This document shows positions 5,621 to 38,584 of a stretch of DNA of 64,000 nt, piece after piece. Below the pieces are notes generated by a model, which saw nothing but the letters and a program-made list of their open reading frames with translations, ran no database searches and was not told the origin of the DNA. Origin of the DNA: Pilibacter termitis (GTDB lineage: Bacteria; Bacillota; Bacilli; Lactobacillales; Streptococcaceae). The position numbers and the translations under genes are program-made. Location of the stretch: the NCBI RefSeq assembly GCF_900167335.1, contig NZ_FUXI01000001.1, positions 39,014 through 103,013 of the forward strand. Direction: 5' to 3'. Each line of letters opens with the position of its first letter. Positions within the stretch are counted from its first letter, which is position 1.

Positions 5621-5689
5621 GCTATGAGGTGTTGTGGGGGATTGGTCGCAAGGTCTCAAACAACCCTTAACGCCCCTCTTCGCCTTTCT
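5621..5689 (+). repeat. Degenerate remnant of the structured repeat (copy 6)
   Basis: Only the right half is recognisable: GGTCGC, CAAACAACCCTTAACGCCCCTCTTCGCCTTTCT. The left arm is eroded. Confidence 0.6.
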
Positions 5690-5692
5690 GTG

Positions 5693-5813
5693 TCTAGCTA
5701 CGAAGGGCTGAAGTTTGGCGACTGCTCTCAATGTCGCTCGCAACTAGCGTTGCGAGTAAATAAACGACATGGTTCGCTGTCGCAACCTCCTGAACGCCCC
5801 TCTTCGCCTTTCT
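5693..5813 (+). repeat. Structured repeat, copy 7
   Basis: Short form. GCGAC/GTCGC, ATGTCG/CGACAT and CGCAAC/GTTGCG pair. The outer arm TGAAGTTT does not match its right partner CCTCCTGA, so this copy looks like a chimera of two sub-types. Confidence 0.88.
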
Positions 5814-5816
5814 GTG

Positions 5817-5937
5817 TCTAGCTGCGAGGGGCTGAAGTCTGGTGGATGTTCGCAGTGCCGATCGAAACTTGCGTTTCGATCAAGTAAACGGCACGGCTCA
5901 CTTCCACAGACTTCAAAACGCCCCTCTTCGCTTTTCT
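5817..5937 (+). repeat. Structured repeat, copy 8
   Basis: Short form ending 3 bp before the potD stop. GAGGGGC/GCCCCTC, TGAAGTCTG/CAGACTTCA, TGGA/TCCA, GTGCCG/CGGCAC and TCGAAAC/GTTTCGA are all paired. Confidence 0.9.
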
Positions 5938-30070: not shown

Positions 30071-30189
30071 TCTAGCTACATGGTGCTGAAGTCTAGCAAC
30101 TGTTCGCAACTGCACTGGAAACTTACGTTTCCAGCAAGTAAATGCTGTGGCTCACTGTTGCAGACTTCAAAACGCACCATTACGCTTTT
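30071..30189 (+). repeat. Structured repeat, copy 10
   Basis: Short form just upstream of apt. CATGGTGC/GCACCAT, TGAAGTCT/AGACTTCA, GCAAC/GTTGC and CTGGAAAC/GTTTCCAG pair. The outer arm differs from the GAGGGGC type yet is matched on both sides. Confidence 0.9.
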
Positions 30190-30193
30190 ATTT

Positions 30194-30374
30194 GTCTAGC
30201 TACGAGGGGCAGGAGTTGGTCGACTGCTCTCAACGTCGCTCGAAACTGACGTTTCGATGCTAGTCTTTCAAGAATCTTTGATTTTTAGAAAGACTGTATG
30301 CGAAACGAAGTGTAGCAGTGAATAAACGACGTGGTTCGCTGTCGCAAACTCCTGAACGCCCCTCTACGCTTTTA
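30194..30374 (+). repeat. Structured repeat, copy 11 (long form)
   Basis: GAGGGGC/GCCCCTC, AGGAGTT/AACTCCT, CGAC/GTCG, ACGTCG/CGACGT and CGAAAC/GTTTCG. It carries the extra module with AGTCTTTC/GAAAGACT. Confidence 0.9.
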
Positions 30375-30378
30375 TTTT

Positions 30379-30558
30379 TCTAGCTACATGGTGCTGAAGT
30401 CGGGCAACTGTTCACAATGTCGCTCGCAACTGACGTTGCGATGCTAGTCTTTCAAGAATCTTTGATTCTTAGAAAGACTGTATGTGAAACGAAGTGTAGC
30501 AGTAAATAAACGACAGTGTTCACTGTTGCAGACTTCAAAACGCACCATTACGCTTTTA
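30379..30558 (+). repeat. Structured repeat, copy 12 (long form)
   Basis: CATGGTGC/GCACCAT, TGAAGTC/GACTTCA, GCAAC/GTTGC, TGTCG/CGACA and CGCAAC/GTTGCG, plus the extra module as in copies 2 and 11. The stretch 30056-30587 holds only repeats. Confidence 0.9.
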
Positions 30559-30562
30559 TTTT

Positions 30563-30606
30563 TCTAGCTACGAGGGCTACTCTGTGTTCACAATGCCACC
30601 TGAAGA
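30563..30606 (+). repeat. Truncated structured repeat (copy 13) running into recJ
   Basis: TCTAGCTACGAGGGC and TGTTCACAATGCCACCTGAAG match the left arm of the family. The right arm is missing. The recJ stop at 30588 lies inside it, so the last codons of recJ come from the repeat. Confidence 0.75.
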
Positions 30607-36392: not shown

Positions 36393-36483
36393 TAAGGGCA
36401 CCTCTAAAAACTATTTGGCTTTTCTAAAAAAGAACTAGAGCATAGGAAGTTATGCTCTAGTTCTTTTTTAGAGATGCTCTTAA
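36393..36483. repeat. MITE-like element carrying the mapZ terminator (copy A)
   Basis: The ends TAAGGGCACCTCTAAAAA and TTTTTAGAGATGCTCTTA are imperfect terminal inverted repeats. The interior is a perfect hairpin. The right end supplies the TAA stop of mapZ. No coding capacity. Confidence 0.65.
36432..36467 (-). terminator. mapZ terminator
   Basis: AAGAACTAGAGCATA and TATGCTCTAGTTCTT form a stem of about 15 bp around a 6-nt loop. A/T runs flank it on both sides. Confidence 0.9.
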
Positions 36484-38285
36484 TAATGCACCGCAGTATT
36501 CGGGTCGAAGTCGTAGCCTTTTTCTGCAATCGTACCACGTCCTCTAAACCAACCTGTTTTACAGTTAATTGTCACAAGATAATGACCGTCAGCAGCAATC
36601 AAGTTGTAATAACCATTGCCATTAATAATGTCTACTGGATTTAAATACCAACCTGTTGAGGCGATATAGCCACGTGAGATACAAATATTAATCACACGCT
36701 CTTGAATCCCTTCTGCCCATGCCCATGCCTCGTTATGCGTGTCTGCAATCGCACGAGAACTATACGGAATAATCGAGTCCGTTTTCGCAGCAGCATCTTC
36801 TGGCCCTGCTTGTGCCATATTGTTAATGCTCGCATTTTGCACGTCACCTACACCGCCATTTTCAGTTGCTCCACCGTCAATTTGTGGTACTGCTTGCGGA
36901 GTTTCCGCTGGTGTAGTTTGTGAAGAATTTTCTTCGCTTGCAACAGTTTCCTCACTTGTTTTTTCATCATTCGCTTGAGATGCTGCTTGAGCTTTCTGTG
37001 CTTTTTCAAGCTCAGCTTTCTTCTTCTGAATTTCCTCGTTCACTTTGTCTAGTTTCTTTTGGAAATCATTTCGGATAGACTCATTTTTTATCTCTTTGAT
37101 TAATTTTCCTGTTGATTGTACTTGTTCAAGAGCTTTCTTCACACTTTCCTCGTCTGCTTTTAGATTTTTTGTGTCGCTCTCCAGTTTTTTAGTCGCCTCA
37201 TCTGCTTTTTTCGCTGTGTCATATTGTTTTTTCGCCTCATCAATCGCTTGATTGGCAACTGTGTCAAAAGCAGTATCTTTTGTATCTGAAGTCAAAGTTA
37301 CAGCTTTATACTTCGCCAAAACCAAATCTTTTACTATCTTATCGTTTTCAAACGCATTTTTAGTGAAAAGTAAATTTACATCTTGTGTTATTTTTGCTTT
37401 TTGTTTCAATTGTTCAATCAACGGTTGTACCGTCTCAAAACCTTTGGTTCCTTTTAATGCGTTAAATTTCTTGACAAAAGAAGCAATATCTTTCAATTTT
37501 TCACTCTTAATAAAATGTTGCTCTTTATCAAAGTAAAAACTTGGAATTTCCTTTTCCAAATTCTCCAAAGCCGTCTTGTCTTTTGCCATTTGCAACGTTC
37601 GTTGTTTCGCTTGCGAGTCTTGGTAAGCATTGTAGCCGACGTAGCCAACACCTGCAAGTACAGCTGCACTTACGGCTAAGATGACAATTTTCTTTCGTCT
37701 ATCTGATTTGTGTGGCGTGAGGTATTCGGTATCCTCTGTTACGGGAGACTGCTCTAGCTCTGTAATAGGAGAAGTTACAAGCTCTTTTATCGGCTCAATC
37801 ACTTTTTCTTCTTCGACATCCGTAGCTTTTTTAGTTTCTTCTACTTTTTCCTCTACAACAGGTGTCGGGATTTCTTGTTCAACTTTCTCCTCAAGTTTTT
37901 CCTCCTGCTTCACTTCTTCAACGGGTGGTTGTTTTTCTGGTTTCTCAACCGTTTTCCCCCCTACTTCTTCAAGCGACTTCACCTTTCCACTCACAATTTC
38001 AACACCAACGCCTTCCTCCCATGAAGGTCCTTCGTAATTTGATTTATGAGCTTGAATATATTGAGAAAGAATATGATTATCCGTCTCCTCCGTTTTCGCC
38101 TGCTCCATTGCAACTTTATTTTTCAAGCGTTCTGCCAATGATTCTTCTTTTGGTGTATTCTCTTCTTTTGATTCCTTATTTGGCATCAATTCCTGAACGG
38201 AACCTACGGTCATGTTTTTCACATCATCAAGCTGTACTCCTTGATTTTGTTGTTTCTTCTTCTTTTTCTTATGCTTTTTTCCCAT
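36480..38285 (-). CDS. mapZ: Mid-cell-anchored division protein MapZ (LocZ)
   Basis: A 601-residue bitopic protein. A very lysine-rich start (KKHKKKKKKQQ) leads an acidic, Glu/Pro-rich cytoplasmic region (about 20-195). One transmembrane helix follows (about 199-219), then an extracellular domain, a Lys/Glu coiled coil (about 350-440), a Ser/Thr/Gln linker, and a C-terminal domain with AWAWAEGIQERVINICISRGYI and VTINCKTGWFRGRG. This is the architecture of MapZ, which binds peptidoglycan at mid-cell and places the FtsZ ring in streptococci and enterococci. AGGAG precedes ATG 38285. The TAA stop is part of a MITE-like element. Confidence 0.85.
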   Translation of the reverse strand: MGKKHKKKKKKQQNQGVQLDDVKNMTVGSVQELMPNKESKEENTPKEESLAERLKNKVAMEQAKTEETDNHILSQYIQAHKSNYEGPSWEEGVGVEIVSGKVKSLEEVGGKTVEKPEKQPPVEEVKQEEKLEEKVEQEIPTPVVEEKVEETKKATDVEEEKVIEPIKELVTSPITELEQSPVTEDTEYLTPHKSDRRKKIVILAVSAAVLAGVGYVGYNAYQDSQAKQRTLQMAKDKTALENLEKEIPSFYFDKEQHFIKSEKLKDIASFVKKFNALKGTKGFETVQPLIEQLKQKAKITQDVNLLFTKNAFENDKIVKDLVLAKYKAVTLTSDTKDTAFDTVANQAIDEAKKQYDTAKKADEATKKLESDTKNLKADEESVKKALEQVQSTGKLIKEIKNESIRNDFQKKLDKVNEEIQKKKAELEKAQKAQAASQANDEKTSEETVASEENSSQTTPAETPQAVPQIDGGATENGGVGDVQNASINNMAQAGPEDAAAKTDSIIPYSSRAIADTHNEAWAWAEGIQERVINICISRGYIASTGWYLNPVDIINGNGYYNLIAADGHYLVTINCKTGWFRGRGTIAEKGYDFDPNTAVHY

Positions 38286-38432
38286 TTCTACTCTCCTATT
38301 TGCAATAACCTACGCTAGTCAATGTTCTCTTCATTTTACCATAGCACAACGTTTTTTTCATTAGAAATTCTGAAAGAGCCAACAATTTTTTTCGTTTCAA
38401 ATTTGAAAAACGACTGCTTTTTTCGGAAAAAC

Positions 38433-38548
38433 AAAAAATTGACGGACAGTTGGGAGACTGTCCGCCGTTTTAGGAAGAAGAGATATATGAAAAGTTTACT
38501 ATACTAATAAGCTAAGCAACTTTTCGATAGGGGGGAGACCCCTATCAC
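38433..38548 (-). ncRNA. Candidate small RNA gene (~116 nt) with own promoter and terminator
   Basis: On the minus strand, TTGCAA (38579-38584), a 17-bp spacer and TAATAT (38556-38561) form a near-consensus promoter. It predicts a start near 38548. Three helices follow: GATAGGGG/CCCCTATC (38526-38546, loop TCTCC), GAAAAGTT/AACTTTTC (38518-38525 with 38489-38496), and a terminator CGGACAGT/ACTGTCCG with loop CTCCCA and a T run (38433-38464). No open frame of note lies in it. C-rich loops recall small RNAs that pair with Shine-Dalgarno sequences, but the targets are unknown. It is not 6S, tmRNA, SRP or RNase P RNA by its visible motifs. Confidence 0.7.
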
Positions 38549-38555
38549 AATTTAT

Positions 38556-38584
38556 ATATTACCATGTTCTCAAAAAGATTGCAA
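38556..38584 (-). promoter_or_regulatory. Promoter of the candidate small RNA
   Basis: TTGCAA, 17 bp, TAATAT on the minus strand, about 8 bp before the first hairpin. Confidence 0.75.

Follow-up and report, generated by a model that had tools for sequence, protein, structure and literature searches.

The stretch of Pilibacter termitis DNA analyzed here (64,000 nucleotides; hereafter the window) carries, between murC and mapZ, an intergenic segment for which a first-pass annotation had proposed an independent small RNA (sRNA) gene with its own promoter, three helices and a terminator. The locus therefore raises the question of whether such a gene exists and, if so, on what its product would act. 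The flanking genes were called from Pfam MapZ_EC1 and MapZ_C2 (mapZ) and from TIGR01082 (murC). Both extracellular Pfam domains match in MapZ (window 36480-38285), which reached 116 of the 700 bits at NCBI's streptococcal MapZ cut-off and is, by these matches, a divergent MapZ.

A predicted small RNA gene on the minus strand

The promoter, the three helices and the terminator were all found on the minus strand, in the order promoter, nine bases, 5' hairpin, second helix, linker, terminator hairpin and AATTTTTT. The features are as follows.

38556..38584, minus strand: promoter with -35 box TTGCAA (38584-38579), a 17-nt spacer carrying an extended -10 TG, and -10 box TAATAT (38561-38556); read from the sequence, 8/12 to consensus
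38433..38546, minus strand: predicted small RNA gene, transcript of ~114 nt; fold z of -7.0; homologues of 115 nt each in two other genera
38526..38546, minus strand: 5' hairpin of 8 bp with loop UCUCC; same position in both homologues, sequence and loop unrelated
38489..38525, minus strand: second helix, GAAAAGUU...AACUUUUC; present in Xx448 as well, absent from the predicted Hs463 fold
38472..38498, minus strand: invariant 27-nt segment (the linker), UAAACUUUUCAUAUAUCUCUUCUUCCU; 27/27 identical in three genera
38433..38466, minus strand: intrinsic terminator from the terminator scan, with a 10-bp stem, loop CUCCCA (38456-38451) and U-run (38438-38433)
38333..38361, minus strand: separate promoter-like site for mapZ, ATGAAA-17-TAAAAT with extended -10; promoter scan, 9/12 with TG

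RNA folding of a 118-nt stretch gave -41.9 kcal/mol versus -18.8 +/- 3.3 kcal/mol for dinucleotide shuffles (z = -7.0), and none of the 200 shuffles matched the native fold energy. The terminator hairpin (38466-38441) consists of ten pairs, one of them G-U, and is followed by AATTTTTT, in which a UUUUUU run ends at 38433. It was the strongest of its region in the terminator scan: the two remaining terminator-like sites of the 3-kb region, where chance would give 1.5, have half its number of pairs. The promoter is the weak part of the unit: TTGCAA-17-TAATAT agrees with the consensus at 8/12 positions, went unreported by a scan at 9/12, and alone would not count as evidence. The minus-strand unit 38546-38433 was confirmed, at the level of prediction, as a real small RNA gene, and is regarded as a gene rather than a candidate because two homologues from other Streptococcaceae genera independently support it. 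The independence of the gene, as first proposed, was thus borne out.

Distribution among sampled Streptococcaceae

Comparison of a 176-bp region with 58 related genomes yielded two further copies, in two other genera of Streptococcaceae. Both are in metagenome-assembled genomes, namely JAITWV010000093 (G007) of Streptococcaceae bacterium isolate Xx448_bin8 (hereafter Xx448) and JAISJD010000027 (G010) of Lactobacillales bacterium isolate Hs463_bin101 (hereafter Hs463). Isolate codes of this kind presumably belong to termite-gut surveys. The sRNA is present as a single copy per genome. An exact 21-mer of the core occurred only in the window's genome, Xx448 and Hs463 among 295 family genomes, the majority of which come from one large genus, and the same search found the exact core to be absent from the sampled Streptococcus genomes. 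A covariance model built on linker and terminator, which linker-less divergent homologues would escape, recovered three strong members only (67-82 bits) from a set of 146 relatives and from 345 genomes across the order, with the next best match at 31.6 bits. The weak matches to this model were taken as chance; ten were viewed as alignments, and two (L034 and L035) were read in context. When the genome collection was searched for an exact 20-mer, it yielded only the two known relatives and 13 scattered matches in unrelated bacteria, of which the two that were opened (Clostridia and Lachnospiraceae) look protein-coding. Matches with two mismatches in the family members G009, G105 and G135 resemble coding sequence. 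No match to the sRNA was obtained in searches of plasmids, phages and viral contigs.

MurC identity to the window was 76% for Hs463, 75% for the same-genus genome G001 and 74% for Xx448, with 66-68% for the next genus. By these values the window's genome, Xx448, Hs463 and G001 look like one clade. Three of these four show the sRNA, and the fourth assembly is just 59% complete. As far as sampled, the sRNA appears to be confined to one small Streptococcaceae clade. Its place within the genome varies. Relatives had been expected to carry it between murC and mapZ as the window does, but this location is not conserved: their murC loci gave no match to the sRNA, the Hs463 copy lies beside a flavin reductase gene, and the Xx448 copy lies beside a prophage-like tyrosine integrase gene. 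In both homologues the 3' end faces a convergent gene, encoded on the other strand.

An invariant linker among altered stems

The strongest feature of the sRNA, missed by the first-pass annotation, is the 27-nt linker, which is invariant (27/27 nt identical across three genera), largely single-stranded, and complementary to a Shine-Dalgarno sequence plus AUG. The final 18 nt of this segment are predicted to be unpaired and would complement AGGAAGAAGAGAUAUAUG, which comprises a Shine-Dalgarno sequence plus start codon. The predicted unpaired probability of the linker was 0.94 in the window and Xx448 and 0.41 in Hs463. The terminator loop reads CUCCCA in the window and CUUCCCA in each of the two homologues, that is, CU(U)CCCA.

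The 5' hairpin and the terminator stem differ almost throughout from genus to genus, yet both still pair. In the terminator, the 5' arms of the stem read GGCGGACAGU, UGAGGCAGGU and CGAGAGCGGU, each with a complementary 3' arm; in a hand alignment of the three genera, which leans towards structure, 29/30 pairs were standard and compensatory changes occurred at 6 of the 10 positions. The covariation signal was weaker with MAFFT, which misplaces the window copy's loop, shorter by one base, and thereby shifts the window row by one. The 5' hairpins (GAUAGGGG.., GUAGUAAGA.. and AAAAUAGUU..) are unrelated in sequence and all fold to 8-9 bp, with loops AAA and GAAA in the homologues versus UCUCC in the window. 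Thus, of two C-rich loops to which attention had initially been drawn, the one in the terminator is kept in three genera, whereas the 5' loop (TCTCC) is not conserved. The second helix is common to the window and Xx448 and is not predicted in Hs463. Predicted transcript lengths were 114, 115 and 115 nt for the window and the two homologues, and fold z values were -7.0 for the window and -7.2 and -6.4 for the homologues. A TTGCAT-17-TATTAT promoter with the same 8/12 score precedes the core of Xx448 by 63 nt, versus 62 nt in the window, and a weaker TTTATT-17-TAAAAT lies 54 nt before the core of Hs463. The first-pass annotation had named as its own test whether relatives conserve the promoter and the helices. 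Both homologues do retain the 5' hairpin and the terminator, one retains the second helix, and the promoter is clear in one and weak in the other.

The three-genus comparison showed hairpins that keep their position and change their sequence, together with a linker and a C-rich terminator loop that keep theirs. Sequence constraint on unpaired parts combined with structural constraint on stems is the pattern that would be expected of a base-pairing regulatory RNA.

Predicted action on translation initiation

The linker (CAU-AUAUCUC-UUCUUCCU) would pair with target mRNAs at their start codon and Shine-Dalgarno sequence, and the terminator loop (CUUCCCA), a second possible anti-Shine-Dalgarno site, may do likewise. 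Such pairing would block ribosome binding and inhibit translation initiation in trans, in a csRNA-like manner. A trans-acting blockade of translation initiation is the most likely mechanism, and it is very probable that the sRNA keeps other mRNAs from being translated, because a perfectly conserved single-stranded stretch complements the ribosome-binding site and AUG. As a whole, the element is probably a trans-acting regulatory sRNA of ~114 nt with its own promoter, restricted to one small clade as sampled, that pairs with the Shine-Dalgarno sequence and AUG of mRNAs and blocks ribosomes. Shine-Dalgarno pairing, as originally suggested, accordingly gains support as a probable activity, with the linker complementing Shine-Dalgarno plus AUG.

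RsaE/RoxS-type and LhrC-type sRNAs of Firmicutes have C-rich UCCC loops able to pair with Shine-Dalgarno sequences. The sRNA described here has a C-rich hairpin loop in common with them, but differs in having no Rfam match and in that its dominant conserved element is a linker also carrying an anti-AUG.

Pairing energy of the linker averaged -12.2 kcal/mol at the 46 gene starts of the window versus -6.9 kcal/mol within genes. Shuffled linkers paired at gene starts nearly as well as the real one (-10.9 +/- 0.8 kcal/mol), indicating that much or most of this generic gene-start affinity is base composition. Complements of an 18-mer of the linker were no commoner in the window's genome than control patterns. 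Linker sites with two mismatches are present at several gene starts in each of the three genomes. In the window's genome, the start region AGGAGGTAGAGAAATATG of a hicA-like gene (L013 1501-1700, contig C30 of G000) can pair with the linker if two mismatches are allowed, making this gene a possible, unproven candidate target. The start region AGGAGGAAAAAATATATG of a gene for a SpaA/thioester-domain surface protein in Xx448 (L094 1-1530, contig C33 of G007) pairs with the linker at -19.9 kcal/mol and is likewise a possible, unproven candidate in that lineage, and Hs463 has a linker complement at the gene start of a probable secreted protein. No target is claimed, since candidate sites were not enriched relative to controls in the window's genome and did not involve shared orthologues across the three genomes.

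Comparison with csRNAs and Rfam families

The csRNAs, CiaR-dependent small RNAs of Streptococcus, are proven regulators of translation initiation that are built from a stem-loop, an unpaired anti-Shine-Dalgarno/anti-AUG linker and a terminator, within 51-202 nt (PMC3091779, PMC8186281). Compared with csRNAs by description, the sRNA likewise runs from a 5' stem-loop through an unpaired linker, which holds an anti-Shine-Dalgarno and an anti-AUG (CAU), to a terminator, and its conservation is similarly concentrated in the linker (PMC3091779, PMC8186281). The unpaired complement of Shine-Dalgarno sequence and start codon is provided by CAUAUAUCUCUUCUUCCU, whose predicted probability of being unpaired is 0.94 in both the window and Xx448 but 0.41 in Hs463, and stem-loops and an intrinsic terminator are contained in an intergenic transcript with a predicted length of 114 nt, within the 51-202 nt range. 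In contrast, where csRNA genes have TTTAAG-N5-TTTAAG ~10 nt before the -10 box, the window reads ATACTT-GCAAT-CTTTTT, and the sRNA promoter was not among the matches to the CiaR pattern in its genome with up to one mismatch allowed, one of which does precede a CiaR-like regulator gene. The sRNA thus departs from csRNAs in the absence of a CiaR site at the promoter, the extra second helix, the single copy per genome, and an exact core not found in sampled Streptococcus. Set beside csRNAs by their published description, it would work like a csRNA but is not classed as one, because the defining CiaR site is absent.

The window's genome also encodes a CiaR-like response regulator and a histidine kinase (L122 1501-3031, contig C16 of G000), preceded by TTTAAG-N5-TTTTAG-N10-TATAAT. 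This pair is probably an autoregulated CiaRH outside the genus Streptococcus; the assignment draws on the near-consensus CiaR site and on a resemblance of the regulator to CiaR. No NCBIfam family scored above its cut-off for the pair. Arrays of mutually related intergenic repeats of ~124 bp (or 184 bp; CAAACTCCAAAACGCCCC...TCTAGCTACGA) are located at 2507-2930, 5665-5937 and 30152-30576 of the window, and a similar repeat sequence follows a CiaR-like site on contig C27 of the same genome (L127).

Rfam gave zero matches at gathering score in the whole 64-kb window and no match over the sRNA at the homologue loci, in agreement with the initial view that this is not a housekeeping RNA such as 6S, SRP, tmRNA or RNase P RNA. 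The best sub-threshold match was the Listeria rliG (RF02415; 18.5 bits, E 0.067, gathering score 55), whose alignment falls largely on the AT-rich sequence upstream and leaves out both the conserved linker and the terminator.

Alternative explanations

A shorter sRNA that starts just before the linker, and so consists of linker and terminator only, is unlikely. A TCGAAA-18-TATAGT sequence at 38527-38498 scores 9/12 in the promoter scan, TTGAAA-17-TAATAT is similarly placed before the linker of Hs463, and 16 of the 61 predicted csRNAs have the terminator hairpin alone (PMC3091779); however, the 5' hairpin, retained with altered sequence in all three genera, and the second helix, retained in two, argue for transcription of the upstream part. 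There is very little to commend the reading of the element as a cis-acting mapZ leader whose terminator serves as an attenuator; mapZ itself starts 148 bases downstream on the same strand. The terminator does stand on the mapZ strand upstream of the mapZ start, yet mapZ has its own promoter-like site (38333..38361) downstream of that terminator and outside the sRNA gene, and the murC loci of relatives are without the element. A conserved position upstream of, and co-directional with, a regulated gene was not observed: the next gene lies on the opposite strand in both relatives, so the sRNA is not a leader of that gene. Equally hard to credit is a functional plus strand on which AGGAAGAAGAGATATATGAAAAGTTTA would supply a very short peptide (MKSLLY, MKSLLSMI or MKSLCHYITP) with its ribosome-binding site and start. 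Although a good ribosome-binding site, a start codon and four identical codons are found in 3/3, the peptides differ in length and sequence beyond codon four, there are no synonymous changes to speak for coding, and the evidence from terminator, hairpin and promoter is entirely minus-strand.

It is also very unlikely that the conserved core acts as a DNA site, for example an integrase attachment site of mobile elements, instead of as RNA. The three copies sit in three different contexts, and in Xx448 the tyrosine integrase gene, preceded by ImmA/IrrE-like and antirepressor-like genes, ends ~35 bp from the terminator. Against this, the window and Hs463 copies have no adjacent integrase, the Xx448 genome (assembly 82% complete) has no second copy of the core or the terminator arm, the phage and viral collections gave no match to the element, and both the compensatory changes in the stem and the retention of the 5' hairpin are characteristic of RNA. 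An RNA gene that is used as an integration site is possible. On contig C87 of Xx448 (L004 151-2860), KilA-N/antirepressor-like, ImmA/IrrE-like and tyrosine integrase genes run towards the sRNA 3' end; the distance of ~35 bp between integrase end and terminator suggests that a prophage-like element is integrated at the 3' end of the sRNA gene. The other end of this element was not found in the Xx448 genome (82% complete). A more far-reaching reading, which we regard as rather doubtful, would see a new CiaR-independent sRNA family in which only the 27-nt anti-initiation module and the C-rich terminator loop are constrained in sequence while the stems drift, the gene having been relocated in each genus and one 3' end having become a prophage-like integration site. 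The preferred reading remains that of a trans-acting sRNA directed at translation initiation.

Significance

The sRNA gene is real, new and uncurated, and its predicted product is of a known general functional type; no match to it turned up in Rfam or, beyond three related genera of Streptococcaceae, in the genomes sampled. As a predicted anti-initiation sRNA, it would present a clean case of an invariant pairing module on a changing scaffold. It would also represent a csRNA-like regulator whose input is apparently other than CiaRH, in a genome that has a CiaR-like system as well.
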